DNA from: Desmodesmus armatus
Taxonomy: Eukaryota > Chlorophyta > Chlorophyceae > Sphaeropleales > Scenedesmaceae
NCBI GenBank assembly: GCA_007449985.2
Contig: VIIQ02000592.1
Span: 186,001 to 250,000, forward strand
Reading direction: 5' to 3'
DNA length: 64,000 nucleotides
The position numbers and the translations under genes are program-made. Positions 1,942-21,754 of the stretch are shown piece by piece. The notes beneath the pieces were generated by a model that ran no database searches, was not told the DNA's origin, and saw nothing but the letters and a program-made list of their open reading frames with translations. How positions within the stretch are numbered: position 1 is the stretch's first letter; each line of letters begins with the position of its first letter.

Positions 1942-4900
1942 CTAGCTTGGGACGTTCCAGCCAGGCCCAGGGAAGCCCTTGGCTAGGTCCGCCCTCGTGA
2001 CAGGGCTGTAGCCCATGCCAGCAGAGACGGCAGCACTCAGGTTGTCAAGTGGCAGGTAGAACCTCAGGCCTGCATACAGCAAGCATCAACACACACTCAG
2101 CTGTGACACCGGTGCAGGGGGCTCAGACTATGAAACCTGCCATGTAGTGTGTCATGCAAAATCTGTCGCGAGACTGCAGGGTTCACTTGAAGCGTGTTTG
2201 CCCGTTCAAACGCCGCAAACTGCAGCGCACAGTAAAGCCCCAGTGTCCCACGGGGATATGGAGCTCTTCACCACACGGTACCGTACACAATGCCATGCGT
2301 GGGGTATACAAACAGGGGGGTACCTGGCAGCTTCTGCTGGTTGTAGTCCTTGGCATGAATGCCACACAGCTTGAGAGATCCAGGGTTGGCTTTCACCTCC
2401 TTGGCATCTTCCTTGGAGACACCCTTGGGCGCACTGCCACCCCCTGCCAGCCAAGACAGCAGCTCCTTGCCTGTATACAGACCCAACCTATCCCCGCTGG
2501 GCATCACTGCCCGCCACTTCACATCGCCAGGACCCAGCAGCTGCTGCAGCCCTGCTTTGGAGCTGCTGCTGCCTGCTGCTGTGCTGCCGCTGGCCTTGCT
2601 GGGTGCGCTGCTGCTCTCCACTGCTGGGTTGAGCCAGTGAGCAAGCTTGCCGCCCGCTGGCTTGCTCACAGATGAACTGCTACTAGTAGTGGGCAGCTGT
2701 CTGGCTGGAGGCCCGGCGTCTGCATCAACATCCCCTGCTGCTGCTGCGGTGGTTGAGGTGGGTGCTTCATTCCAGCCGGGTGCAGGGAAGCCCTTGGTCA
2801 GGTCTCCCTTGGTGACTGGGCTGTAGACCAGACCGGCTGCCACAGCAGGGAGCAGGGTGGACAGAGACTTGTAGAACTTGACACCTTGAAGAAGCAAAAG
2901 CACGCAGCACAGGAGCAGCACAGCAAGCCATCAGCAAGAGCTGATCTGAGCAGATGTTAGACAACCTTGGTAAGCTTTGGGCCTGGGCAGACGCCTGGGC
3001 AGAGAACAAGACCAGCAAGCTCATGGGGCAGACCAGTAACACCCTGTCTTCTTCACAGCGTTTCACTTGCAGCACTCCTCAGGACAATCATCATGTACAG
3101 CTTTACTGCCAGTGCCATGCGTGCGGCACTGGCAGTATAGTATCATCACTATGTGTCTGATACGATGGAGGCCTTCCAGGCCCAATCGGAAGTCATGTGT
3201 GCCCGCGCAAATGCAGCTACTAGTAGCCATGCACGCTGGCTGGACAAGCTGCATATGCACGTCAGTTGCACGCATGTGCACTTTCAGCACCCACCTGGCA
3301 GGGCCTGAGGGTTGTAGCTCTTGCCGTCGATGGCACACACCAGCAGGGCTCCCTGGTCAGCCACCAGCGCACGTGCGTCTGCACCTCCCAGGCCCTTGGG
3401 CGCGCGCCCAGCCCCAGCCAGCCACCCGATCATATCACCCGAGCTGAAGGGCCCCACGCGGTCCCCGCTGGGCAGGATAGCACGCCACTTGATGGCGTTG
3501 GGTGCAGAGACAGACAGCAGACGCTTCAGAGCTGCCATCCAGTCAGGGCTGCAAGGCTGCAGCAGCGCGGCAGAGGGTGAGGCGCCGCCACTACTGCTGC
3601 TGCTGCCCCTGCCTGTGGACAGCTTCCCAGCAGTCTTGCTGCTGCTGATGCCCCTGGATGTGCTGTAGGTGTTGGTGAGTGCTGAGGAGGCAGCTGCAGC
3701 TGCCTTTTTTGCCTTGCCAGCCTTGCGAACACGGCTGAAGCCATAGCCATAGTCGCTGTCATCCGAGTCTACTGCATCATCGACATCTAAGGGCACACCT
3801 GTGTCATCTGCATCACCTGGGGAGCCGTACTCTGCTGCTGCTGGTGCTGCCGCTGTATAGGAAGCTGGTGCTGGTGGCACTGCGGGAGCAGCATCTGCCC
3901 TCTTGACCTTGGCGAGCATCCCTGTGCCTCTGCGCATGCCCTGGGGTGCTGCAGCTGGTGCTGCTGAGGTCTCTGGCTTGAGCATTTCTGGGTGACACTG
4001 GCCGCCTGTGAACGTGTCTGCCACACCCCCATTGGCCTCCCAGCTGCTGCTGCTGCTGCTGCCTGCCCCTGATGCCATGCTGTGGGTTGCAGAAGGCCTG
4101 CTGTACTGCAGCCCATGAACCTCACCAGACTGCCCCATCTTCATGAGGCGAACGTCCTGACTGCCGACAACAGCAGCTGCACTGCGCTGGTGCATGACTG
4201 GCTGCGGGCCCCGGCTGTGTGAGCCCTCCCCACTGGCTTGCCCCATGGAACGCACGTCCTGGCTGCCAAATCCAGCAGTTGCCCTGCGCTGGTGCACGAC
4301 CGGCTGCGGGTCTTGGCTGTGCGGGTTGTCCCCACTAGCCTGCGCCACAAAGCGGATGTCCTGAGTTCCAACATGCTGTACAGCAGCTGCTGGCCTGCGC
4401 TGCTGGCGCACCCCCGGCTGCTGAACCTGGCTGGATAGGTCCTCCCCACCAGCCTGTCCCAGTCCATACGCAGTGGAGCGCACATCCTGACTGCCGGCAG
4501 CAGCAGCCTTGCGCTGGGGCATGATAGGCTGTGGACCCTGGCTGCTCAGGTCCCGCCCCACCCCGTCCCCAAGCTGGCCAGCATTACCCGCCATGAAGCG
4601 CACATCCTGTGTGCTAACAGCAGCTGAGGGCCACCACTGCTGCTGCTGCGGCGGCGGCTGCTGCTGCTGCTGCTGCAGTGCTGTGTGGGTGTCCCTGGGC
4701 TTGTGCTGGTCCCCTGGGGGGCTGGGGAGGCTGTCCTGAATGTGCTGCAGGGGGCACTGGAAGGTGTTGTGGCCGGTGGTGTTGCAGAGCTTGCAGCGCC
4801 GAACGGTGCACTCCTCTGTGGTGTGACCTCCAGTGCGGCACTTGCGGCAGTAACCTGCAGGTGACAGCAAACGAAGCTTTCTGTCACTGCTGAAGAAGAA

Positions 4901-7900
4901 GATGTGCAGCAGAGACAGCTCAGAAGACAAAGGCACGAAGCAACTGCTGTCATGGGTAGTACCTGTACGGGTGCATGTGTGCATGTAGTACAGCCTGCCG
5001 CAGGTGCAACATCCCAACCACGCAACCACCACCAGCTGCACAAATGCATCTACCAGCCTCAGGTTTACACGTACCAGGGCACAGCTCCCGTGCATGCCCC
5101 CAGCATTGGCACCTGCACAAGCACAGGGACATACAGCCCCAGATCTTGTCAGTAGACGAAGCCATTGCAGCTGACATAACAACTCAGCTGCCTGTGTCTG
5201 GTGCCAGGCACCCGTCGGTCCACCCAAACCCAGCATTTGTGCAGAACAACAGGCTGATGCCAGCGGCAGTGCCACATGGACCAAAACTTGTGTGATGTGT
5301 TCAGCACGTGCGAGGAAGCAGCCGCAGCTGTGCTGTGCTTCTTGTGTGCTTGCTAGTCAATTGGCTCATGCGCACGAGGAAAGTTGCATGCAAGCCAGTT
5401 GAAACTCCACCCACCTGTTGCACTGTGAGGCTGGGCAGTGAGTGTGGTGATGTCCCCACAGACAGCACTCCAGGCAGCGCTCATGCTGGCAATCCCTGTC
5501 AAGGGGGCCCTGGTGCTGCCACCCACATGTGCTGCAGGCAGTTGCGCAAGTGCCCTCTGAATGTCCAAACTGCAGCACAGGCAGCAAGACACAGCTAAGG
5601 TTGAGATGGTTGCACTGCCCCGTGACTGTACAGCTGCACCTGGACTGTACTTGCTGCGCAGCTCAGGGCAATCAACAAGCAAGACAGCATACACTTAGCC
5701 ACATAGGTGCTGTGCTGGAGGCTAGCAGTGTGCAGAACCAAGGATGCTTCTTGTGGTCGCACACCCGACGGACACTGTCACCACGATGGTTGCATCTGAA
5801 AGACCCCACCAGCGCTTACCAGGTTGCACCTCTCACACAGAGGGGTGCTGCAGTTCGCCTCCTCATGGCCTGCAGCTCCACACTCCCTGCACACCGGACC
5901 AGCCACAAACAGGAACCGGCGCGCCTGCTGCGAGCCCCTGTCAGCTGCATCAGCAGCAGTCGCAGCTGCTGCCTGGTGTGCCGCTGTCACAGCAGTGCAG
6001 TGCACTGGCTGGTCAAGCCAATCTGTTTCGCCCACTGGCTGACCTCCCAGCCGGCTGGCTAGCCGCTGGCTGAGCGGCAAACGGTGCTCACTACTGCCCA
6101 GCGAGGTGCTGTGCTGCAGTGGCTGCTGACCGAACCGCTGACTCAGCGACATACTAAGACGCTGCTCATCCCGGCCCAGGGAAGTGGTCTGCTGCAACGG
6201 CTGCTGCTGTTGACCCACCAGGGCTGGTGGCACCCCGCTCAGCTGCTGCACCTCTGGGTGGGACACTAAGGCAGCTTGAATGCGTAGGGCACGTCCCTCA
6301 AACCCAGGAGGCATGTCAGCAAGGCCTGCAGCTGCAATGCAGGCGGCCCTTGGCGGCTCCCTGCCCTCAAAACCAGGGGGCCTGCTGATGTTTTCGAAGC
6401 CAGGTGGCACATCATCATCGCTGTCCTCACCCACAATGCCTGCAGCAACAGCCGCAGCACTGCTGGTGGCTGAGCCATGCATACCGCTGGTGTAGTGGAA
6501 ATGTGCTGGCTGGCCTGTGTGGCCATGTGCATAGCTGTCAGCAGCGCTGCTGCGGGCAGGGTAGGCTGCACCAATGGGGTTTGCTGTTGCAGCAGAACCT
6601 GCAGCTGTGCTGAAGGTGCTGGTGGGTGCCGCCTGGCCTGCAGTCTGCTGCACGGCTGCACCCGAGAAGAGATCGCTGTACCTGTCTGGCTGCAGTGAGC
6701 TTGAAGTGCTGGTCCTGATGCTGTCAGAGGTGACAGTGTAAGTGTAGTAGTCGGACTCCGTGCTCTGCCTGTGTGCGGGGCACGCCCCGGACTGCTCCCA
6801 CTGGCTGACTGCATCATTGCCAGCAGCTGATGCCCTGCGTTGGAAGGGTGCTGCTGTTGGTGCCGCCCTTGCTGCCCCACCGACAGGTGACCTGTCGTGT
6901 CCTGCACCCGCCCTGTCCCTGGCTGCTGCTGCAAAGTGCAGGGCTGCCAGCCTCTTGGCCCCAACCATTGCCTCAGCTGGCTGCCCAGCCCTGCTGTCCC
7001 AGCTGTAAGCACCAGGTTTCTGCCCAGCCGTGGCCCCCCAGCCGTCAGCAGCAGGGTGCAGCTCAGCCCTGCCCTCCCAGCTGTCAGCACCATTGCCGTG
7101 CTGAGCAGAGCTGTCCCAGCTGCCTGCACCATTGCCTTGCCCAGCCGTGCCCTCCCAGCTTTTGGCACCACGCTGCCCCTGCTCATGCACAGCACCTTCA
7201 GCGCCAACACAGCCGCTGCCAGCAGTGCCAGGCTGCTGGAATGCGCCCTTGGGGGCGGCGAAGGGGCTGCGGGCGTGCTGGGCATGAGGTTGCCGCCTGC
7301 CAGCGGCTTTGAGTTCGGCAGCAGCAGCCTCAGCCTGCCAGAGCTGCTTGATGCGCTGCTTCTCTTCAGTAGGGTCCATGTTCGGGGTTTGACTGGGTGG
7401 TGCTGCCTGTGGCTGGCCTGCTGCACTGTCGGCTGCCTTACCCTTTTCATAGGCCATGTCTGCATGCGTCTGCTGGTGGTGCTGCTGCTGGCTGCCTTGC
7501 CCTGTGCCGCTGCCCTCACCTGCAGCCCCTGTCGTTGACGATGGGTCTGCTGTGCAGTGGGACTTGGCGGGCCAAGACTTGCCTCGATGATGTTGGGCCC
7601 AGGCCTGCTGCTGGTGCTGCTCCTGCTCCTGCTCAGCAGCAGCCTGTTGAGCCCACAGCCGCTTGATGCGCTCAATCTCCTCCCTAGCGTCCTTGCTGCT
7701 CTGCCACCCACTGGCAGTGGGTGCTGCCGCCGCCGCCGCTGCTGCTGTCGTGCTGGATGGTGCTGCATCTGACTGGCCGGAGGCTGCTGCTGGCTCAGGC
7801 ATGGCCGGTGGTGGCAGCTTCTCTGCCTGCCGCTGCTGTGGCTGCTGCTGCTGCCCTTGCTGTGTGCTGTCATCCCTTGCACAGCCTGCATCTGCAGATG

Positions 7901-10314
7901 CAGGGGGGCTAGAAGGGGCCTGCACGGGTGCTGCTGTGTGGCTGTCCACACTGCTGGCCTGGCATGCAGCTGGCAGGTGGCCAAAGCACCCACAAGCTGA
8001 GCACTGGTTGTGGGGACACTGCGCCCGTGTGTGGCCGGCCAAGCTGCACTGCTGGCAGAAGGGGGTGCTGCAGGTGCCGTCTGGTGCAGCTTCGTGGTAG
8101 TGGCCGCAGTTTGAGCAGGCCTCTGCGCACCTGCAGGACATGAGGACAGGGAGCAGGCAGCAGGACAGAGTCATGTATGCTGCAGCTGCACAAGGAATGG
8201 GATTGCATGACACATGGGTACATGTGCTGGCATTGTGTGGGCGCAGCCTAGTGCGGGAAGGGGGCTGGGCAACCAGACACATACAACACATGTCAACAAC
8301 AGTTTCCGTGCAACAGCCCCAGAACACAACGATTTCCTTGCCGCAGGTCCCAGACGGTGTAATGTCAGCTATGGAGGCACACGCATGTGTGCTGACAGAA
8401 AAGGAAGTAACATCAGCATCACCCCACCACACCATGACCCCAAGCTAGGGCTGGGCAGCCAGACACTGCCGACCTGTCAGCCAGTCTCCTTGCTGCATAT
8501 CGTGCCACGGCTGTCGGACAGCGGCTGTCCAAGTAAGACAACAAGGGGCATACATGTGCTAGCACAATGATTATACCACAGATGTGTCAGCTACACATAG
8601 CATGGACCACCGAAAAGGGACTGGCAACCATTGCCTTGTAGATTGTCTAGATGCAAACTAGCAGGCAGTCTGTCAACTGAAGAATCAGGAGGCCAAGAAA
8701 TTTCCTTGCAGCAGGCCACATGCTCTCAACAGACATGGAGGCCTGCAGGAAATGAACACAGGCAACAGCAAGCGATGCATGGCCCATGCAGATCTGTCTA
8801 GACCGGGTCTCTCACCTTGCCGCATCATGGCCAAACCAGCAGCATTCGGTGCAGAAGGCAGTCCTGCAGGTGTTGGCAGCATGCCCCAGTGCCCCACAGA
8901 CGCTGCACACCAGCGGCCCATAGTACACCAGCTCCCGGTGTGCGATCTTCACCACCTGGGGTGCAGCCGCTGCACCAGAGTTTGGTGCTGGGCCAGGACT
9001 CTCCTGCATGCTGGGGTTGCTGCCCTGGATGATGTGCTGGGAAGTGCACTCCGCACCTGGCACTGCTGGAGGAGGACTGTGCTGCTGGGGACTGTGCTGG
9101 GGACTGTCCTGGGCACCTGCTGCTGGTGGTGGAGGACTGCGTACCTCGCTGGGTGCTGCCAGCAGCAACGGTGACACTGCTGCTGCAAGCTCCGAGTCTC
9201 CTGGGTCTTCTGAGTCTTCTGGAGTGGCAGGTGCCTGGGGCGAGCCTGAGATGGCTGCACTGCTGAGTGGGCACTGGGGGCCTGCCAGGCTGGTGGAAGC
9301 AGCAGCAGCTTCAAGGCCCAGGGCAGCTGAACGTGTGGTGTCCATGTGTGGCTGAGTGGCTGGGGTGGTGCCTGTCCTGCAGGTGCCAGGCGCATGCTGC
9401 TGAATGCTGAAGGCCTCTTGAAGTGCTGCTGCAGGCTGGCTGCTTGCTGCTGCCATGCATACAGCCACAGCAGCAGGACTTGCAGGTTGCTGTGTCAGCA
9501 TGGAGTGGAGGGCTGCAGCCGGTGCCTGCAGCTCAAGGTCAGCAGCAGCGGCTGCTGCTGCATGAGGTGCTGGACTGCAGTTTTCCTGTGTGCTGGGGCT
9601 GGAGCTCATGATGGGACCAACACTGACTGCTGTGACTGGGGACTGTGATGCCACACTGCAACCTCCCTGTGGGCTGGGGCTTGATGTGGCTGTGGAGCCC
9701 ATGCTGACTGCTGGGTGCGGGGACTGTGCTGGGGACCATGTTGGGAACTGTGGTGGGGAATGTGCTGGGGACTGTGCAGCAGAGGCATCCACCTGGGGCT
9801 CCTGGGTGTTGGCAACTGCTGCCTCCTCTGCTGCAGTGCTGGCTGGGGGCGCCACACTTGCAGGCATGGCGCTGCAGGCCTGCATGCCGGTGGCCTGTGG
9901 CAGGGCCCCATCTGTGGTGGTGGCTGGGGGTGTGGGTGCCTCTGTGGGTGCTCCAGCGGTTGTGCTGGCTGGTGGTGGTGGAGAAGGGGCACCTGCTGCG
10001 TGCTGTGGTGCACCACGGGAGTTGCTGCTGTCAGGCATGGCAAGCACGCCGGTGGTGCTGCTGCTGTTGGCACGTGCTGCCTGTTCCTGCATGGAACCTG
10101 CAACCGTGCAGTCTGCTTGGTGCTGTTGGCAGGAAGGTTCTGCCGCTGCCCCATGGCTCTTGTGTGTCTTGAGGGGCAGTATGGCAACAGTGACTGATGC
10201 ATCATGGGTACTGTCTTGCTCTGACGTGACGATCACGCCAGCAAGTGCTCCTGGCGGCACGACTGGCTGTATATCATCCATAGTGGGCGGCCAAGCACCA
10301 CACGAGAGCTCCAT
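1942..10314 (-). CDS. Multi zinc-knuckle (CCHC x12), GYF-like repeat protein with PPGF and Trp repeats
   Basis: Seven exons: 10314-8816, 8130-5820, 5569-5415, 5112-5075 (38 nt), 4854-3295, 2884-2324, 2069-1942. They sum to 6252 nt (2083 residues plus TAG), and every join is in phase. The start is the first ATG after an in-frame stop. Residues 1-460 are low complexity (Ala, Pro, Ser, Gln). Five CCHC knuckles follow at about 470-555 (CSVCGALGHAANTC first). Then comes a disordered region with two ERIKRLW/QRIKQLW coils, Trp-spaced SWEG/SWDS/GWGA repeats and three PPGFE motifs. Seven more knuckles lie at about 1245-1370. Two ~125-residue repeats end the protein, each with KWRA..PSGDR, a GPFSSGDM-type segment, LC.I....YN.Q.LPG and KGFP.PGWN; the first half of each resembles a GYF domain. 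RNA binding is likely from the knuckle family. A role in RNA silencing or decay is inference only. Confidence 0.85.
3104..3137. repeat. Perfect 13-bp hairpin in an intron
   Basis: TACTGCCAGTGCC at 3104-3116 and its exact reverse complement at 3125-3137 flank an 8-base loop. It lies in the 2885-3294 intron of the zinc-knuckle gene. Confidence 0.8.
5075..5112 (-). other. 38-nt microexon completing a zinc knuckle
   Basis: Between the acceptor CTTGTGCAG and the donor GTACGTG lie 38 coding bases for CQCWGHARELCP. Joined to the exon ending CNR at 5415, they give CNRCQCWGHARELC, an exact CX2CX4HX4C. The phases (2 in, 1 out) are the only ones that keep both neighbouring exons in frame. Skipping it shifts the downstream frame. 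Confidence 0.85.
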
Positions 10315-11287
10315 GCTGCGCACGAGTTCACAGGCACCAGATCAGATGCCGAGTGTTATCACCATCCTTTGCTGTCGCTGTGCGTGGGGTGTGCTGCTGG
10401 CTAACATGAGCCTTAATTAAAGATGTTCTCCGTGCTGGATCATCCATGCTGCCGACACGCGTGTTCAAATCAGCGCGGGCTTTTCAAACTTCACGACAGC
10501 TTACAACCGTTGATGAATCATCAACAGAGGCTTTGAGCGGCCAGGACGACATGTAATGTGGTTTGTACGTCGCGGTTACATTACTTCAAAGCACAGTCAC
10601 AGTCACTACAACGTAGGTGCGGCCTGGGATGCCCAACTGCTGTGCTGGCATGCACCAGCCGCCGACTACCGTGCCCACTTTACACACACCCATCAGGCTG
10701 ACCCCCATGTCAACCATCAACCCGAACGCACCAGGACAAGCACAATGCGGGCCAGGGCCTTCTATGCGAGAGCTCTCAATTCTATACGAGAGCTCTCAAA
10801 AACTGCGGCGCACACAAACACCCAGTAACACTTTCCGGAACATGCAAGCCTGCAAACTCGTGTGGCAGGGCCACAGGCTGTGGTCCACAGCACTAGCAGC
10901 AGCAGTCATGCACTGGCTGGCATCACACAATCAACGGCACCGCAAGAAACGAGAATCCTTGCTGACCAAAAAGTAAAGCACTTGGCATGGTGGGACTGCC
11001 ATGAGATCTGCACCACCTGCAAGTGTTGCTCACACCGGCACATCAGTGGCATGATGCCATTCGGCGGCCTGCTCGACAGACCTTCGAGATTCGCTCAGCC
11101 CTGACAAACGTCTTGGCTTGACCACTTACGCAGTGGCCTTCAAGCAAGAGAGGGTTTGGTTCAGAACACAGCCTTGATTCAAAAACCAGCCGTCAGCACT
11201 CTCAGAACATCCTGTACAATGATCATCACCTGAAACTACTGGCCGGCAGCTGCAGCCACAAACAAGTGCCACCTGTCACCAGCCTGT
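10315..11287. promoter_or_regulatory. Upstream region of the zinc-knuckle gene; 3' region of the FAD gene
   Basis: These 0.97 kb separate two minus-strand genes. They should hold the promoter and 5' UTR of the gene starting at 10314 and the 3' UTR of the gene ending at 11288. Apart from the tandem repeat at 10761-10800, I see no TATA box or other clear site. The small frames (10556-11104 plus) lack coding signs. Confidence 0.5.
10761..10800. repeat. Two 20-bp tandem repeats with GAGAGCTCTC palindrome
   Basis: Two 20-base units (10761-10780 and 10781-10800) differ at two positions. Each carries the 10-bp palindrome GAGAGCTCTC. They lie about 450-490 bases upstream of the start at 10314 and could be a paired protein-binding site, though this is not shown. 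Confidence 0.7.
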
Positions 11288-14200
11288 TCACAGCAGAGGG
11301 CTCTTGATGCCAAAGGCGTCAAACACGCCCCGGGCAGACCGGTTAACCGTTTTGAGTGCCGTAATATGGGGCTCATCAGGCTCTGTATCCAGCACCATCG
11401 CTTTCTGACCTACACCACACTTGTCAATGACAAGGTTGGCAGCTGTAAGGCCTGTGACGTAAGCGCGCTCTTGGCTCAGGCCGTTCGCCCCGTGGGACAC
11501 CTGCAGAAGCAGCATACACAAGCATGTCACGATGAGGGGTACTACATACACATGGCAGAAGGCCTTGTATGCCATATGTCACTGACGTCACTCTGAAGCC
11601 TGCATTCCTGCAACAGCCTTGCAGAAGCTGCCCTGCAACTTCAGCAGGAACGCACAACCGCATGGAGAGCCCCTACGGCAAGCTGGTTTCCTGCGCTGTC
11701 CTGTCTTCGCCACCCAGCCCCAGGCTACAACACATGCGTCCACTCACCCCTTTGACCCAGTCCCCTGCCAGGAAGCAGTTGGGGATGCCGGTGACCTGAT
11801 AAGGCCGTGAGGGGTAAGAGCCAGGCGAGAAGTGGGTTACCGCCTTGGGGAACCTCAGCACAGCACTGTCGATAACCGTGGCGTCCTTGAACCCTGGTTC
11901 ACACGTCTCGATGTGTGACTTGAGGCGCTGAACAATTTCATCATCGGTGAGGGGCAGCAGGGCTGAGGCACCGTAAAAATCTGCAGGGCACATGCAAGCA
12001 GGGCAAGCATGTCGTGCAAGATGAGCAGTGCAGCCCTAATCGGATGCATGACCCAATCGGGTAAGACAAGTAGGGCAAGCAGGGCACATGCAACATTGTA
12101 TTGGGCGCCTCTCAAGCATACCCCTCAGATACGCCAACAGAGGACCTGCCAACTGTTAAGCATCTATGCTGGCTGTCAACTACATCTGTTCTGTGCAGGG
12201 TGTGCTGACAGCCCTTGTCTGCACTTGCTGCAGCTCCGGCCCTGTAGAAAAGCACTGCCGGTGCACGATGCGGCACGCATGTGTGTGGCCAAAATGCAGC
12301 AGCTGACGGCGCCAACAGGAAGCGACGTCCCCCAAGTCGACATGCCTGCCTGTGTCTGCAGATGCCGCATATGCAAGGCGCCATGCCCAATAAGTGCACC
12401 CAACGCATGTCGGTGTCGAGAGAGGGTTGCTAGCCACCATGCAGCGCACCTGCAGTGATGACGGAGCCTGGTGCATCCTTATACTCATCCTGTCACAGAC
12501 ACACACGCAGACAGACCACGTACTAGGCTTCAGCAGCTGCAGATTCTGGTGCTGTCTCCGGTTCTCACACTGGGTGCAATGGCTGAGCCTGTTCTGGTGT
12601 TGCCTGGCATTGTTCAGGGAGCCCCTCGACAGGGCAAGGCACGCAAACAATTCTGCACCAGCGCAAACTGCGCAAGCCCGATGCTGCAGTGTGTTGGGGT
12701 TGGACACATGGATGAGTGACCATACCTAGTGAGCACTCATCTCAAAGTCAAGCCGTACCAACATGCATGCATGTGCAAGCAAGCGGCCCTGGTCCTGCCA
12801 GTTTGCGTGCAACAGGAGCTGAAACACCTGCCAGCTCTAATACCACAGGAGTACAAACCTGCAGCTCGTTCAGGTTGAAGAAGGTTGCGCCGGCTGCAGC
12901 CTCAAACCCTGACAGCACATTGGCTGGGTACCGCGTCTTGACCAATCGGTCAAACCTGCAGGTGGGGGCACACAGCAGTAGGGAATACGGGCGCAACCTG
13001 GGTGGCTGGGCTGATCACCGCACAGCACAGCCCCTGGCTGCCTGTGACACTGCCGGGCGTCCGCAACAGTGCGGCAAATGCGCAGATGCATGTTGAGTAG
13101 GTAACAATGCAGCCAGGTGCCCCTGCAAGTTGCACGATGTTGGCTGCACAGAGTGTTTGCGCATGGTGACTCCCTACCAACCTGTCCATTGACAAGAGCA
13201 GTCGATGGGTCACTGATCTGAGACACGTTCATGCAGACAACCACTACATAGACCTCATGAACGCAACAACCGAGCTTTGGGTAGACCCGCCCAAGCGTAG
13301 CTTATGACATACCAGAGGCGGGTGGCAATGACGTCAATGGACCTCAGGTTCATGACATTCCTGAACTCCTGCCTGTCCCCCAGGATCCTGCACTGCTGCA
13401 CCAGCTTCTGCATGCCTGTGATGCCGATAGCAAACACCACTGCATCTGCCTGATAGCTGCTGCTCTGGCCGGTGGCAACATCACGCGCCACCACGGTCCC
13501 TATGCTCCTGCCGTCAACCCCGGGCTTCAAATCTGTCACCAGCTGCCCACCCATGACCTGCGGGCAGTCAGATCATGGCGACACACACATCATACGTGCT
13601 GAAACAACTTGATGGGATGTACTTATAGAGTAGCCCCAGTGTTGGCAGTACAAGGCTACACGGCAGACCCAGACTGCCAGCACAGCAGGTACTACAGCAG
13701 CTGTACCCCAATCAAAAGGGAACAGCTTAGCACGTGCTGCTGCCCAGACCCCAACCAAAATGGGATCCAAGTGGTTACAGGAGCCTGGAGGTGCACTTCC
13801 GCTGCAGACTGTGCAGTAAAAGGTCTCGGCGCAACTTAGGTGCGGATATTTGTACAGCACCACCTCACCTGGCCCCCAGCTGCCTTGATCCTATCCACCA
13901 TGGGGGTGAAGATGGTCTCAGCAATGGACCCACGCGGCCAGCACACATCAAAGTCGTTCTGATGCGCCAGAGCGTAGAAGTAAAGTGTCTCCAACATAGA
14001 GGCAGCACTGCATGTCATGACGGTGATCACCAGTACAACACGGCACACCATCATGATAAAGTTTGTCAAGGTAGGTATGCCCGATACACTGTGGTGCATG
14101 CAGCATGGGGACTGAGTCGTCCACCCGATGATGTGTTACAATGTACATGGCATGTACATAGTAGGTGACAGGTTGATGTCAACACGTTGCTCAAGGGCTG

Positions 14201-16738
14201 CTTGCCAAGCTCTCCCACCTTCAAACCACACAACGCCCTGGCTTTCTGTACCAAAGTCAATGTTTGACTATCCTTGTAGGACTGATTCTAGTAAGCATGC
14301 ATGAGTACGCATGCAATCCCTCTGCTGACACACACCTGATGTCCTCTGGTGGAGCAAACAGGCCCACCAACAGTGTGGGTCGCAGGAACTGCACATCAAC
14401 AAGCACAGCGCAGCATGTCTGATGCAGTACAAGCATAGCACGTCAATTTCAAAGCAAGGTGAAATTGAATTATGATAGGTATGGATGCACAACAGTCGTG
14501 CTCACTGGACAGTGCACCTCAGCACACTGCACCACACTTCAAGTGCCCGCCACAGCTGCTGACTGCTACATATGGAGGTCACAGCCAGCCCCTGCCCCCT
14601 GTGCCTACCTCCTCATAGCACCGCTGGCTCACGCCCCACTGCCTGAACAGCTCCCTAGCACTCATCTTGTCGTACCTGCATACACATGTAACATAACACG
14701 CACAAACCTTACACAAACCAAAGCCCCAGCATCCCACAGCACGTGCCTGTTGCCGCACTAAGATGGCGGTGTTGTTGGTTCAGCTGTACCATGCATTAGC
14801 AAGGGGGTAGGACAGCTGCAGGTCGCATACTGACAGCACCTTCAGCATGCTGGCATCTGGGTAACTGCGCAGTTACCGCACCGTTCATACACCTCAGGGC
14901 TGGCATCAAAGTCGACAAAGCTCAGGAGGAAGGGCAGCATGGTGAGGCGCTCCTGCAGACAGCACACATGTGACAGCACTTGAGCGCATGACTAGCACTA
15001 GCACTAGCACAACCACAGCATAGCATTGCCAGTATATGCCCTGCGTGTGCACGGCAGACATATACATGGCACTGACAGAGCCTGACTCATATGCAGCGGC
15101 AGCATCAGCCGCTGATGGTGACCACATCCAGGTATCCCGCTCATTGTCAGTTGTGCTGCCTCGCTGCCCAGTCGCATTTGTGCTTGCAAGCTGAACATGC
15201 CTGCGGATGGTCAGCGAGCTGAGCAACACCGCCTACTGCAATTTCGATACCCCAATGTACCATGGTACTGCCAGTACCACGGTGTAGCATCCCCATGCTG
15301 CACCCCCTCACCTCCAATGGTAGCGCCCAAAACAATGGAGCTGTGTGCACAAACTGACCCAGGAGGGTCGGCAGCCGCGGCAGCTTGCTGAAGACTGGGG
15401 CCTCAGTGACCAGGCCCTGCGGGCTCCAGAAGCCACTGGTTGTCCAGTCCGTCAGGGGCCACTCCCCACCCAGGTCCTGTGGCGGCAGGATTCAAATACA
15501 CATACGCAGCTTGTTGACAGCTGGCTTGCAGGCAGCACTGCTAGTAGTGCCTGGTGAGCAACTGCAAACCATGCAGCAGTACCAGCCTGGCGGCATGAGT
15601 GCTGTGCACCGTGTGTGCATGCAAGGTCACTGATTATGTGTCGGCTTTTCTCGAACACCTGCCAGGCCATGGCACACGCACGTCGTGCATGCTGAGCCTA
15701 CCTACCTTGAGCAGGGAAAAGATGTTGGCGTACTGGTACCCTGCACAGGCACAAACAAGCAACAACACATGTTTGTTTAACATGGCCATGCGAATGAGAA
15801 GCACCCAATGTGGCTGGGGCTGGATATTGACATGGGGCTGAGCTTTGGGACCATGCCAGAATCCCAACTGATCCTGATGTCTGTGGCACACAGCACATGC
15901 AGTGTCTTGCAGTGCCATGCTGCCAGCATAACTCACAGAATCCTTTCATCCCGGCCTCAACAACCTTGCCAGATGAGGTCCTGAAACCTGCAAGCGCAGA
16001 CACTGACGCCCTCAGCACACAAGCTCACAGGCAACACAGTACAGTGACAGCGTGAGCATTGCATCACAGCTACTTGGGGTAGCTGGCAGCTGACTATGAT
16101 TGCTTGATTCCGGCTATTCTGCACTGTCAGTGTTGAGTGTGGTCACACTGCCAGTATGGAGTGCACACACAGGCTGGAATGTGTGTGTGCAACCAGGACT
16201 TTCCAGCATCACTTGCTCAGCTGCTGTCATTGAACAGCAGCTGCCTCAGGCACACACACCTCCTGAGAGGCCACCAGGGTTTTTGGACGCCTCCAGCAAA
16301 GTGACAGCATAGCCCTGCTCTGTAAGGTGTTTGGCAGCGCCAAAGCCTGCCCAGCCACCCCCCACCACCACGACCTTCTTCCTAGGGTCGTAGGTGGCTG
16401 GTGTATGTGTGGCCCTGACTGCATAGCTGCTGGTGCTGCTGCTGCTGCTGCTGCTGGCGCTGCTGCAAGTCACCATTCGCGCATGGCGGGGTGTGTTGGT
16501 CGGGACCAAGCTGCTGATGAGAGTGTGTCGTTGCACCGGGGCAGTCTGCTTGGCACCAAACAATGGCTGCTTTAGTGCACATTGAGCTTCAGGCTGCACC
16601 TGCACCCTGGGGCATGACCTGCAGGCACACATGTGCGGTGTTGGTGGTAGGGTGGTGGGTTGTGGTGTGGAGTGAGTGCACAGCTGAACACATTCACACA
16701 ACCTTGCTGACTTACCCAGCGGTGGAACGCATCAGCAT
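11288..16738 (-). CDS. FAD-dependent amine oxidase / phytoene-desaturase-like oxidoreductase, probably plastid
   Basis: Fifteen exons: 16738-16716, 16618-16260, 15987-15937, 15740-15706, 15476-15312, 14952-14893, 14815-14790, 14675-14609, 14388-14336, 14007-13869, 13557-13313, 12955-12859, 12489-12450, 11980-11748, 11500-11288. They total 1806 nt (601 residues) with all phases consistent. The N-terminus (about 85 residues, Ser/Arg-rich, almost no acid) looks like a chloroplast transit peptide. KKVVVVGGGWAGFGAAKHL (about 88-106) is the FAD-binding dinucleotide fold, followed by NPGGLSGG. Later blocks GWPL-type TDWT, AHQNDFDVCWPRGSI, GGQVMGGQLVTDL, RFPKAVTHFSPGSY and FLAGDWVKGVSHGANGLSQE match the plant FAD/NAD(P)-binding oxidoreductase family related to carotenoid isomerases and desaturases. 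Substrate is unknown. The weakest joins are the 23-nt first exon and the 26-nt exon 14790-14815. If the first exon is wrong, the start would be the ATG at 16632. Confidence 0.88.
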
Positions 16739-17064
16739 ACTGTGGCTTGTTGTAGACCCACTTTGAAACTAGAGGGGCTGCAGTCAGGACTTGTTTGTGT
16801 GTGGATCAAAAATGCCAGGTTGGCACAGACTTGCTCTCTCAGGGCGTTCGACGTGTCCCATTAACAGACCACACAACCAGATTTGTCATAGGAATCACCC
16901 AACAAACATTAAACGTTACAAGGGCGATGAAAGTCACTCCATGAAACCAGGTTTCAGGCTCTCGAGAGAAACACACGGCGTGGGCACACTTCGGTGTGAT
17001 ATGTTTCGGAATCGTCAAAGGCCGAGAGGAGACGCTGGAGCGAGTGATGAGATAGCGGAGAGAC
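16739..17064. promoter_or_regulatory. Divergent promoter region and 5' UTR of the plus-strand zinc-knuckle gene
   Basis: About 325 bases separate the ATG of the FAD gene (minus) from the split ATG of the second zinc-knuckle gene (plus), so both promoters should lie here. The plus-strand frame 16791-17105 has no family features; its end overlaps the non-coding first exon inferred for the zinc-knuckle gene. No clear core promoter motif was found. Confidence 0.45.
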
Positions 17065-20000
17065 ATGTGAGTGCGCGCATGGGCAAGACAGCAGCTGAGG
17101 GCTGAGATCTTGTGTTTGATGTGCGTATAAGGCTTCTTGCGGTCGTGGCAGGGCTTGATTTCGCCTCGCCCTTGTTCGCAACACGGCAGACAGACCGCGG
17201 ACTCCCTCATGCGTGCCCCACTGCACACTCCTTTGATTGTCTCTTGTGTACATCAAACACCGGACTTCACTGCTGGCCAGCAGCACGTGCACACTCCCTG
17301 GCTTTGCTGAAGGCTGGCTCCCCACTGCTCCTTACTGCTGCTGCTCTTCACTGCTGCTCCTTTCTGCTGCTGATTCCTGATGGGATTCTTGCGAGCAGGT
17401 ATCAGTTCAATTTACTCTTGGAGGAGAACCAGATTCCTGACAGCAAGCCCAGTAGCACCAGCTCCAAGGCCACCACAAAAGCAGCAGCAGCAAAGGGCAC
17501 CAAGCCCCATGCAAACGGCAAAGCACCAGCACAGCAGCAGCCAGCAGTACCAGCAGCACCTGCAGCCAACGGCCCTGCACCAGGCAGGTCAGCCGATGGC
17601 AAGCCTATCTGTTACAAGTGTGGCAGCAAAGGCCACACGGGGGACCGCTGCAAGCAGCCCTTCTGCGAGCGCTGCCAGCAGTTCAGGCATGTTGCAGGCG
17701 AGTGCAACCGCGCATGCAGAAAGTGCGGGTCTCTAGAGCACCGCCTGGACGGCGGCCTGCCCTGCAAGAACTACCAGTGCAAGGAGTGCGGCCTATTCGG
17801 CCATGTGTACGCAGAGTGCCCCAACATTCTGTGCAACACATGCAACGAGTACGGCCACCTCAGCAGGGACTGCCCCACCCGCAGCAAGCCGCGCGCAGAC
17901 CCCAGCGCCATGGGCCCCACAGCTACTGCCGCCATCGCAGCCCAGCAGGCCAAGCTGCAGCAGCAGCAGGCTGCTGCAGCGGCCGCAGCAGCACAGGCCC
18001 GCCTGCAGGCTCCTGCGCAGGCAGCAGCACCGGCAGCGGCAGCGGCGCCTCCGCCCCAGCAGCAGCCAGCACAGGCGCCGGTGCTGCCGCAGCCGGTGCT
18101 GACCCCGCAGCTAGAGCAGCGCCGCGTGTACGTCATGGACCTGCTGATGTCCCGTGCTGAGGACTATGCCCTCACACTAGTGAGCGAAGACCAGAAGCTT
18201 ACCCTGCTGGCGCAGCTCACAGACGCAGAGCTGCATGCAGCGCTGTCCAGCAGCAACAAGGGGCAGGCCCTCGACGCAGCAGCAAATGCCAGGCTGCAGA
18301 AGCAGCAGGCAGCGGCGGCGAGCGCAGCAGCGGGTGTGATTATAGCCCCCACCAAGCAGCCAGGGGCAGCAGCAGCCAAGCAGGCGGCCTCGTCCGCCCC
18401 AGCACCAGCTCCAGCAGCGGCTGCAGCGGCAGCTGCTGCTGGTGGGGAGGGGATGACCCCAGACATGCTGGCGAGGGCGATGGTGTGCGGCCGCTGCGGG
18501 GACAGGGGTCACAACAAGGAGCGCTGTACCACGCCCTACTGTGACACCTGCGGGCTGTTCAGGCACACCACAGGGCCGCAGTGCAAGCAGTGCTGCCAGG
18601 CGTGCGGTGCCCTGGACCACAAGTCTGGGCACGGCCACCCCCTGTGCAAGAGCTACAAGTGCCGCGAGTGTGGGCTGTACGGCCACGTCTACGCAGAGTG
18701 CCCCAACATCGTGTGCAACCTGTGCAAGCAGGTGGGCCACAAGGCGCTCGACTGCCCCAGCATTGCTTGCCACATCTGCGGGCAGAAGGGGCACAAGGCG
18801 CGGGACTGCACGGCCTGCACCCGCTGCGGCCAGCACGGGCACAAGGCAAAGGATTGCCAGGGTGCTCGTGCTGAGGTGCGCTGTGTGCACTGCGGGGAGT
18901 GGGGCCACATGGCTAGCAGATGCCCGGGCCCCTCCGCTGCAGGAGCAGCGGCAGCAGCAGCAGATGAGGAGGAGTACGATGCCCCAGCAGAACTGGCAGC
19001 AGCAGCAGCAGCAGAGGTGCCAGCACTGATGGGTGCTCCTGCTGCTGCCCATAAGCCCCCAGCACCAGCAGCAGCTGCAGGTGGCCAGGCAGCACAGCTG
19101 CCCCTGCCCGCCGCCGCTCCTGCAGCCGCAGCAGCGGCAGCTCCTGCAGCCCTGCCCAAGCCTCGGGTGGTGGGTGCCGGTGGGGCGGGCGCCTGGGCAG
19201 CAGCAGTGGCAGGCGTCCGTGTGGTGACGCCCAATAACGTGCGGCTGCTGCCTGTGCCAGCCGCAGTCGACGCAGCAGAGGAGGAGCGGCGGCAGAAGCT
19301 TGTCAATGGGCTTATGCCGCGCATGGAGGGCTTTGCGCTGGGGCTAGTGGGCAGCGAGGAGCGGCTGGGGGCCCTCAGCAGGATCATGGATGAAGACCTC
19401 CGCGCCCTGCTGAACACCCCCACACCCGAGCAGCACCTGGAGGCAGCCATCCGGCACGTGAAGCTGACAGAGGAGCAGGAGGCAGCTGCAGCCGCAGCTG
19501 CGGCAGCAGCGGCCGAGGAGGAGCGCAACCGGCCGCCGCCCCTGCAGCAGCCGGCAGCCAATGGCCCTGAGTCAGCCTCATATGAGGGCGAGCTATCGCC
19601 GGGTGCCTCCATGGGCCGTGGGGAGGGAGTGAAGCCTAAGCAGCTGCTGCCGCAGCATGCAGCCGCGCTGGAGAAGGAGTTCCCTGGGTACTTCCCCAGT
19701 GACTGGCAGCAGTATGCGTCCTGGAGGCAGCTGGAGGAGGGGATGTACTTCCCCGAGCCCTGCAACAAGCACAGGGCGCAGTACCGCCAGCGCCGGCAGC
19801 ACTACCAGGCACTCACGGCGGCGGCTGTGCAGCAGCAGCAGCAGCACCAGGCAGCACGCGCCCAGCAGCAGCAGCAGCAGCAGCACCAGGCGCCGGCGCC
19901 TCCACCACAGCAGCCCAGCACACCTGCACAGAGGCCTTGGCTGGCCGCTGTGGCTGCCGGCACACCAGCTGCCGCAGCCGCAGCAGGTGCGACCCCTCAG

Positions 20001-21754
20001 CCTGAGGCAGCAGCTGTGCGCAGCAGCTTTGAAGCCCCAGCAGCCGAGCCTGCTGCTGAAGCTGATGCCGTGCCACCCCCAGCAGCAGCTACAGTGCAGC
20101 CCCCTGCTGCCCCAGACGCAGCTCCAGTGGGTGCAGGGAGTGGTCCTGCTCCTGTGGCTGTCGGCTACCCTGGTGTCCCAGTAGCACCCCCGCCAGCCGC
20201 CCCAGCAGCAGCAGCAGCAGCAGGCCCCAAGCCCCTGGCACTGAGTGATGTCAGGCTGCTGCCTGCTGGCTCACTGAGTGAGGATGAGCAGTGTGACAGG
20301 TTCTCCAAGGTGCTCGACTTCCTGCTGCCCACCTACGAGTCCTTTGTGACCTCACTGGGTGAGGAGCAGTGGCACGTGCTGGCTCGCATCTACTATGAAG
20401 ACCTGCAGACCTTGCTGCAGGGACCACAGCCGCTGCAGCAGCTGCAGGCCCTGCTTGCCTACTGGCTGCGGAAGGATCAGGAGGCAGCAGCGGCGGCGGC
20501 AGCAGCGGCACAGCAGATGGAGCAGGAGCTGCTGCAACAGCAGCAGGCAGCGGCGGCCGAGCAGCAGCGGCAGCGGGAGCTTGAGGAGGAGCAGCAGCGC
20601 CAGCAGCAGCTGCAGCTGCAGGAGCAACAACGGCAGCAGCAGCAGCAGGAGGCTCTGATGGAGCAGCAGAGGCAACAGCAGCTGCAAGAGCAGCTGCGCC
20701 AGCAGGAGCTGCAGGAGCAGCAACGCCAGCAGCAGCTGCAGGAGCAGCAGCGCCAGCAGCACGAGCAGCAGCTGCGCGAACAGCAGCGGCAGCAGGAGCT
20801 CCAGAAGCAACAGCAGCAAGCCCAGTATGAGCAGCAGCGCCAGCAGCAGTACCAGCATCAGCAGCAGATGCAGTACCAGATGCAGCAGCAGGGTGCTGCC
20901 AAGGCACCTCAAGCCACTCACCTTGACCCACAGGGTGCAGCAGCACAAGCAGGGTCTGCCAGGGGGGGCCCATCAGCAGCTCAGGCACAGCAGGGAGCAC
21001 AGAGCGCTTACTCCCAGGCACCAGGGGCACCGGTGTCCCAGGCAGCACCAGGAGCAGCAGTGCCCCAGTCACAGGCTCAGACCCAGCTGCACCTGCAGCA
21101 GCAGCAGCAGGCGGCAGCCAGGCTGCCTCCCCAGCTGCAGCCACAGCGGCTGCAGCCCCAGACAGATGCCCAGCTGTCAATGGCTCACTCAGCAGCACCC
21201 CAGGCCCCACTGGCTGCCCAGGTGCCGCTGCCCTTCCACCTGCAGGGCGCACTTGGCCAGCACCGCTTGCAGCAGCAGCAGCAGATGCCGCTGCACGCCT
21301 CCCACCTGCCCCCACAGCTGCCCCTGGCCCTGCAGCAGCAGGCCTACCAGCAGCAGCAGGCACAGCACCACTTCCTGGGGCAGCGCATCCCTGGGGCGGG
21401 GCTCGGCATGCCTGGGCTGGGGCTCGGCATGGGCCATCTGGGCCTAGGCCTCCCTGGCATGGGGCACCTTGGGGGTCCTGCAGTCACTGCAGCAGCAGTA
21501 GGGGCACCCTCAGCTCTGGGGCAGTGCCACCGGCATCTATGGGTGCTGTGGGGCTGGGCATGCAGCAGATGCTGGGCGTCCCAGGGGTGCCGCAGTACGG
21601 CCAGCCTGGCATGCTGCCGGGGCAGCAGCCAGGTGCTGGGCTAAACCCTGCATACGGCCAGCCCTATGGCCAGCGCAGGTCCTCTGTGGCTGACACCCTG
21701 GAGGCCGGCCAGGAGCAGGACATGGAGCACATGATTAAGTTCCTGGGCATGTGA
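17065..21754 (+). CDS. Second multi zinc-knuckle polyQ protein with three helical repeats
   Basis: The reading frame from 17399 has no ATG before the knuckles. Exon 1 ends ...GAGACAT before GTGAGT (17067) and exon 2 starts G TAT CAG after GCGAGCAG, so AT|G forms the start codon (M-YQFNLLLEEN) across a 332-nt intron. Thirteen CCHC knuckles form two arrays, at residues ~72-160 and ~364-509 (CYKCGSKGHTGDRC first, CVHCGEWGHMASRC last). The third knuckle of each array is enlarged (CX2CX4HX7-8C). Three ~60-residue repeats follow the patterns LMSRAEDYALTLV, LMPRMEGFALGLV and LLPTYESFVTSL at about 243, 628 and 966, and look helical. Then come long Gln-rich coils and a Gly/Met/Pro tail. Near 21480-21523 the frame must change to reach the fitting tail that ends HMIKFLGM at 21754; without it the protein stops at 21644. 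Nucleic-acid binding is likely from the family. Confidence 0.8.

Follow-up and report, generated by a model that had tools for sequence, protein, structure and literature searches.

An ordered zinc-knuckle module in two divergent genes of Desmodesmus armatus and in related algal proteins

The locus and its zinc-knuckle blocks

We describe here an ordered zinc-knuckle module carried by two genes on opposite strands in the green alga Desmodesmus armatus. The window, by which we mean the whole 64,000-nucleotide stretch analysed, comprises bases 186001-250000 of a 1.04-Mb contig (VIIQ02000592.1, here C563; genome 116 Mb, GC 0.588), and each of the two genes, M on the minus strand and P on the plus strand, contains two blocks of closely spaced CCHC knuckles (numbered k1, k2 and so on). 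Gene M is predicted to have seven exons encoding 2083 residues in a single frame that opens with ATG and ends at a stop; its six GT-AG introns are of consistent phase, and its first exon and start codon are features of the model. One long exon holds both blocks of gene P. The blocks were located by regular expression, together with splicing in gene M.

1942..10314, minus strand: gene M, splice model, exons 10314-8816, 8130-5820, 5569-5415, 5112-5075, 4854-3295, 2884-2324 and 2069-1942
8907-7962, minus strand: block M1, five knuckles, k3 CSNCGHYHEAAPDGTC, k2 split by an intron; linkers RTAF/AEA/STPF/PHNQ
4754..5891, minus strand: block M2, five knuckles (5891-5079) followed by k6 and k7, k3 CSTCGWQHQGPLDRDC; linkers STPL/ATA/QHER/PASQ
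5075..5112, minus strand: 38-base microexon within M2
17001..21754, plus strand: gene P, model, exon 1 tentatively at 17001-17066, main exon beginning at 17406, possible 3' end at 21754
17610..17873, plus strand: block P1, five knuckles, k3 CRKCGSLEHRLDGGLPC; linkers KQPF/NRA/KNYQ/PNIL
18486..18923, plus strand: block P2, five knuckles (18486-18755) and three more, k3 CQACGALDHKSGHGHPLC; linkers TTPY/KQC/KSYK/PNIV

A preliminary description of this DNA had reported four five-knuckle blocks with one order in the two genes, and these blocks, the third knuckles quoted for them and the linkers of 3-4 residues (4/4 blocks) are all confirmed. The wording "blocks of five" holds in that all four have the five slots, but M2 extends to seven knuckles, the additional ones being CRKCRTGGHTTEEC and CKLCNTTGHNTFQC, and P2 extends to eight. 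Three introns (5819-5570, 5414-5113 and 5074-4855) interrupt M2, and k2 of M2 is split by an intron just as k2 of M1 is. The fifth knuckle of M2, CNRCQCWGHARELC, is complete only if the microexon is spliced in, as the model predicts; its phases fit (2 in, 1 out) and it has a 38-base counterpart in a paralogous gene, G. We also note that the frame of gene P breaks near 21.5 kb (21400-21754), about 200 bases ahead of a plausible C-terminus, at an unplaced intron or an indel.

Slot order, knuckle length and knuckle chemistry

The five slots are not equivalent. For slots 1, 2, 4 and 5, knuckles of 14 residues were compared with the C and H positions excluded, because these are common to all slots. 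In the four window blocks, similarity is greater between same-slot knuckles from separate blocks or genes than between knuckles of different slots, with the observed value reached in 3 of 5000 within-block permutations. The test was extended to 15 blocks, 14 from the D. armatus genome and one from Tetradesmus obliquus (53 knuckles, compared only across gene groups), and since 0 of 2000 label permutations reach the observed value, the slot order is real. These 15-block counts exclude a weak module match on C3 that contains two stops, and the modules of the database proteins P0001 and P0005-P0008, which were used in the alignment or tree. The consensus array is k1-xTPx-k2-xxA-k3-linker-k4-Pxxx-k5, typically with five slots.

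The third knuckle had been described as always enlarged, which is true of all four window blocks but not as a family-wide rule: it exceeds 14 residues in 10 of the 15 blocks, and is 13 residues long in three and 14 in two. Its length nonetheless departs from 14 residues in 13/15 blocks, against 1/54 knuckles in the other slots, and slot 3 is therefore better regarded as a variable-length slot. CNBP knuckles are uniform in length, and the k3 departures distinguish the module from CNBP/GIS2 arrays if a uniform length of 14 residues is taken as the standard.

A hidden Markov model (HMM) built from the four window blocks separates family modules from ordinary knuckle arrays, giving 73-135 bits with 11 held-out family modules and 10-66 bits with eight control arrays (CNBP, GIS2, ZCCHC7 and ZCCHC9 among them). 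The nearest control is CNBP at 65.7 bits and the weakest member scores 73.0, so the separation is not wide. When the order of the knuckles was permuted and scored with two HMMs, six held-out members in their native order ranked 1-4 of 120 or 1-4 of 24, the weakest ranks being those of C139 (4/24, one HMM) and of Tob and P0005a (4/120).

The chemistry of the slots also differs. An aromatic residue is found at position 7, just before the Gly-His, in 13/15 k2, 12/15 k4 and 8/11 k5 knuckles, but in only 2/15 k3, 0/14 k1 and 1/33 control knuckles. Position 2, where an aromatic stacks on bases in known knuckle complexes, shows the reverse, with aromatics in 0/45 knuckles of k2-k4, 4/14 of k1 and 1/11 of k5 compared to 25/33 controls, although the use of this residue as a mark of the CNBP/GIS2 type is our reading of the control sequences. 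The aromatic-Gly-His motif of k2 and k4 resembles that of the second zinc knuckle of CLIP-170 (CLIP1_ZNF; structures 2hqh and 3e2u), and two PDB queries with single k2 knuckles each returned the CLIP-170 knuckle as the first match (E 0.0014 and 0.033). Mean scores are highest for k1 with CNBP and nucleocapsid (NC) knuckles, for k2 and k4 with CLIP-170, and for k5 with Air2, and CLIP-170 outscores both NC knuckles in 23/54 family knuckles versus 1/33 controls. CLIP-170, unlike the family, is not known to have a five-slot array.

A family of module-bearing genes

Searches of the genome with single modules identify seven further gene loci (G, Q, C564, C25, C94, C139 and C6). Two lie on the same contig, gene Q at 371.6-373.6 kb and gene G, in exons, at 359-362 kb, and the presence of modules on C564 (which carries two), C25, C94, C139 and C6 shows that the family is dispersed. 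The modules are not all complete: those of C94, C139 and Q2 have four slots only, that of C6 is broken at the fifth knuckle by a stop or an intron, and one G2 knuckle has lost its final Cys. In the C25 gene (L050, C25:310500-320499, at 4621-4965) the five knuckles are followed by irregular Cys-rich motifs such as CRNCWQDHEYSKELIC.

Protein database searches returned 3 matches among 7982 scored candidates, 3 among 44 (query included) and 7 among 1841. There are eight homologues in total, four from T. obliquus and four from JGI, and every named one is from T. obliquus, where they carry generic annotations ("hypothetical protein" or "CCHC-type domain-containing protein"). The search method depends on five-letter words in common and on a length within a set window; the 7982-candidate run scored only the top word-sharers, so distant relatives may be missed. 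With that reach, all family members seen so far come from scenedesmacean green algae and the JGI relatives. Pfam catches it poorly: zf-CCHC (PF00098, cut-off 20.8) matches gene P at 62.2 bits (3.1e-17) and P0001 at 24.6 bits, and does not exceed the cut-off in the long exons of gene M or in P0002-P0008. The preliminary description knew of no family with this exact signature, and the literature searches made likewise found no paper describing this module, although the signature itself has to be reworded with k3 as a variable slot.

A short acidic, LG-containing C-terminal tail (e.g. ELDDKLGVLGVLGLQ and ELQELLGLLGV) is common to Q, P0001, P0008, P0002 and P0003, and thus to both gene types; it may be a linear interaction motif.

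History of the gene pair

Genes G and Q form a second pair on the contig, about 150 kb away, with G (GYF type, ~353.8-366.7 kb) and Q (plus-gene type, 369.6-374.0 kb) both on the minus strand. All four introns within M1 and M2 have counterparts of identical position and phase in G, as judged by eye, and the microexon is likewise shared; G has one additional intron, in k4 of its first block. Another G intron (C563 ~359.4-360.2 kb, L046) contains apparent decayed tandem copies of the exon with k2-k3 of the second block. Comparison of the pair regions by blastn gives seven matches, five of them between M and G in direct and mostly collinear orientation and two between P and Q that are inverted.

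In a tree of modules the P and Q modules and T. obliquus OEZ85_010310 form one clade (97/97), M1 groups with G1 (84/79) and M2 with G2 (90/49, moderate support), with 4 of 16 inner branches well supported. Because M1 pairs with G1 and M2 with G2, the doubling of the block inside the M/G gene appears to be older than the duplication of the gene. The homology of the two window genes and the duplication of modules within each, as originally proposed, are supported, whereas the proposed local duplication and inversion requires modification. P and M do not group as recent inverted duplicates of each other; the simplest reading is that the gene pair was duplicated locally, with inversion of one member, after the M/G blocks had doubled. 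The linkage extends to a sister alga, in that the tags of T. obliquus OEZ85_010309 (GYF and module) and OEZ85_010310 (plus-gene-type module), on a 7,636,537-base contig, are consecutive, from which we infer that the two genes are adjacent.

Divergence between P2 and Q1 is uneven. Over the joined module the nonsynonymous (dN) and synonymous (dS) values are 0.18 and 0.50, consistent with purifying selection. Within k4-k5, however, 40 residues are identical and 4/120 bases differ, as compared to a dS of 1.38 in k1-k2. The similar patch (window 18593-18799, C563:373266-373472) spans 207 bases (208 columns) at 87% identity, and may reflect local gene conversion between paralogues some 169 kb apart.

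Domains accompanying the module

Outside the knuckle blocks the two genes carry different domains:

2769..3541, minus strand: variant GYF domain 1, extended at its C-terminus and interrupted by intron 3294-2885 (domain alignment, hhalign)
1954..2558, minus strand: variant GYF domain 2, extended at its C-terminus and interrupted by intron 2323-2070 (domain alignment, hhalign)
6300..6407, minus strand: three PPGF motifs, at gene M residues 1075, 1084 and 1107 (motif count)
18102..18305, plus strand: helical repeat A4, copy 1, weakly MLLE-like
19269..19472, plus strand: helical repeat A4, copy 2
20277..20474, plus strand: helical repeat A4, copy 3
19626..19832, plus strand: helical domain A3 (LLP..W..SW), matching no known fold

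The GYF assignment comes from profile comparison, hhalign aligning the domain alignment A9 with the canonical GYF domains of the alga at E 4.4e-13; the corresponding Pfam model (PF02213, cut-off 25.7) recognizes the T. obliquus proteins P0002 (34.5 bits) and P0004 (35.9 bits). Gene M has three PPGF motifs against a mean of 0.27 in 500 shuffles. A GYF domain and PPGF motifs within one protein are also found in the plant protein PSIG1 and in GIGYF/SMY2; PSIG1 is reported to bind PPGF, to carry its own PPGF and to localize to P-bodies (PMC5657617). The variant copies differ from those of the plant and GIGYF/SMY2 proteins by the replaced Tyr of the GYF motif, the long C-terminal extension and the accompanying knuckle array. 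At a separate locus (L054, C728:253500-263499) canonical and extended variant GYF domains occupy successive exons, with no knuckle cluster in the 10 kb scanned.

The A4 repeat appears to have five short helices and has a weak collinear match to the MLLE domains of PABP and UBR5. None of the three copies has a Pfam MLLE match, and the MLLE profile (PF00658) finds only two loci, both elsewhere, at E up to 10 (two candidates scored). The resemblance of A4 to an MLLE domain is at most suggestive. The A3 domain is present also in Q, G, the C564 gene and T. obliquus proteins, and P0002 combines it with the module and two GYF domains. It has a confident helical structure model, for which the best Foldseek hit has E 8.5 and VIA gave no match, and its PDB sequence matches are weak, the best being DHDDS at E 0.03.

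Discussion

It is common to regard the units of a zinc-knuckle array as equivalent RNA-binding beads, and the module described here, in which knuckles of differing chemistry occupy fixed places across paralogues and in at least two species, offers a testable case for division of labour within an array. Its parts are known, and their arrangement is new. The module, its order, the family, the shared domains and the paralogous pair can be read from the sequences directly; as for function, the most likely of the readings considered, which we hold at about even odds, is that the family consists of large, low-complexity-rich, multivalent adaptor or scaffold proteins restricted to this lineage. For algal biology, this would mean that adaptor proteins have multiplied in a widely cultured family of algae.

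The position-7 aromatics, the CLIP-170 matches and the slot scores together lead us to favor a hybrid array within a multivalent scaffold. The core of each protein would be the ordered module with typically five slots, in which k1 and the extra CNBP-like knuckles would touch RNA, and k2, k4 and most k5, having an aromatic just before Gly-His as in the protein-binding CLIP-170 knuckle, would hold protein partners together with the GYF and helical domains. Variation in the length of k3 would change the geometry between the two halves of the module. Around it would lie variant GYF domains and PPGF motifs in the minus-strand gene or helical repeats in the plus-strand gene, and the repetition of such elements could build a ribonucleoprotein or condensate-like assembly. 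Taken in full, with slot 1 binding RNA, slots 2, 4 and 5 binding protein in the manner of CLIP-170, slot 3 acting as a length-tuned spacer, and the whole forming a messenger ribonucleoprotein or condensate scaffold family that evolved and multiplied within scenedesmacean algae, this proposal is tentative and rather doubtful in its entirety. In CLIP-170 itself, the knuckles are reported to interact with the protein's own CAP-Gly domain (PMC12820607), and the second knuckle to be required for CLIP-170 condensates, or patches (PMC8664194).

Several observations weigh against the hybrid scaffold. The likeness to CLIP-170 is confined to one short motif, with negative mean scores; among five references, CLIP-170 scores highest in just 7/14 k2 and 7/14 k4 knuckles; and k5, as noted above, scores best with Air2. 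The Pfam model CLIP1_ZNF (PF16641) does not reach its cut-off of 25 anywhere in the genome, the best family match being 21.6 bits. RNA is reported to be excluded from CLIP-170 patches (PMC8664194), which argues against joint roles in RNA and protein binding. The window GYF copies have no Pfam match and are absent from the 12 PF02213 matches in the genome, paralogue G reaches just 16 bits with that model, and no GYF domain was found in gene P. Moreover, the Tyr of the GYF motif is replaced by Arg in four and by Ser in one of five aligned variant copies. We take this site as probably equivalent to Tyr-575, which PSIG1 is reported to need for PPGF binding (PMC5657617), and with this Tyr replaced, PPGF binding may have been lost from the variant domains. 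The maximum among the shuffles is also three PPGF motifs, and the count in gene M is suggestive only.

A simpler explanation is that the module is a plain RNA- or single-stranded DNA-binding array that works like CNBP/GIS2, the differences between slots reflecting drift. Those arrays likewise consist of tandem CX2CX4HX4C knuckles with short linkers, the C/H ligands are kept in nearly all family knuckles, k1 is CNBP-like, zf-CCHC recognizes gene P strongly, and CNBP approaches the weakest member in the four-block HMM. However, the module has ordered slots, a k3 of variable length and aromatics at position 7 (25/30 in k2 and k4) rather than at position 2, where k2-k4 have none, and permutation of knuckle order with three module HMMs places the native CNBP order at ranks 41, 89 and 95 of 120, far from the ranks of the held-out members. 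We regard the plain array as a possibility to be taken seriously, if on balance unlikely.

If the CLIP-170 resemblance were taken at face value, the knuckles could bind a CAP-Gly protein and place the family in a microtubule plus-end system. CLIP-170 was indeed the first match of both k2 queries, and of eight weak CLIP1_ZNF matches in the genome four fall in family knuckles (G, M, P and C6) and one lies beside the C564 modules; yet every one is below the cut-off and the best is elsewhere, on C104, which leaves this explanation improbable.

A relationship to the Air1/Air2/ZCCHC7-type exosome cofactors of TRAMP was considered and rejected as an identity. The knuckle array of the yeast Air proteins likewise includes a single long knuckle. 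A profile of 20 modules has Air2 as its top PDB hit (E 1.4e-6), the long second knuckle of Air2 lining up with k3, and the three genome matches of an Air2 piece include Q (2.1e-4) and P (1.5e-3). The strong PDB match then failed the knuckle-order control, since native Air2 ranks 13, 13 and 17 of 24 with the three module HMMs; its register is therefore not special and the similarity is not order-specific. The same piece fits just as well to an ordinary array at C87 (2.0e-4), and an [IV]W[RK]xY motif is present in 0/12 sequences checked (G by its first exon only), IWRXY being named as a conserved Air1/Air2 motif in the title of a reference listed in PMC7305330. A TRAMP role is accordingly very improbable. 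Least probable of all is host capture of a retroelement Gag nucleocapsid. In its favour, Gag proteins typically contain zinc knuckles, and retroviral nucleocapsids come after Air2 among the PDB matches. Against it, the five-slot order, the introns within knuckles and the GYF neighbours are features of host genes, a Pfam scan of the long exons in the window found no retroelement domain (algal retroelements were not searched), and neither of two viral-contig scans gave a confirmed relative.

The neighbouring gene

The gene at 11673-16731 (minus strand) lies between M and P. Its inclusion in the duplicated unit was considered and rejected, since the matches of a 43-residue segment lie on C706 and, weakly, on C275, but not at the second gene pair. 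The gene is head-to-head with P and, with matches to NAD_binding_8, DAO and Amino_oxidase, encodes a flavin adenine dinucleotide (FAD)-dependent oxidoreductase.

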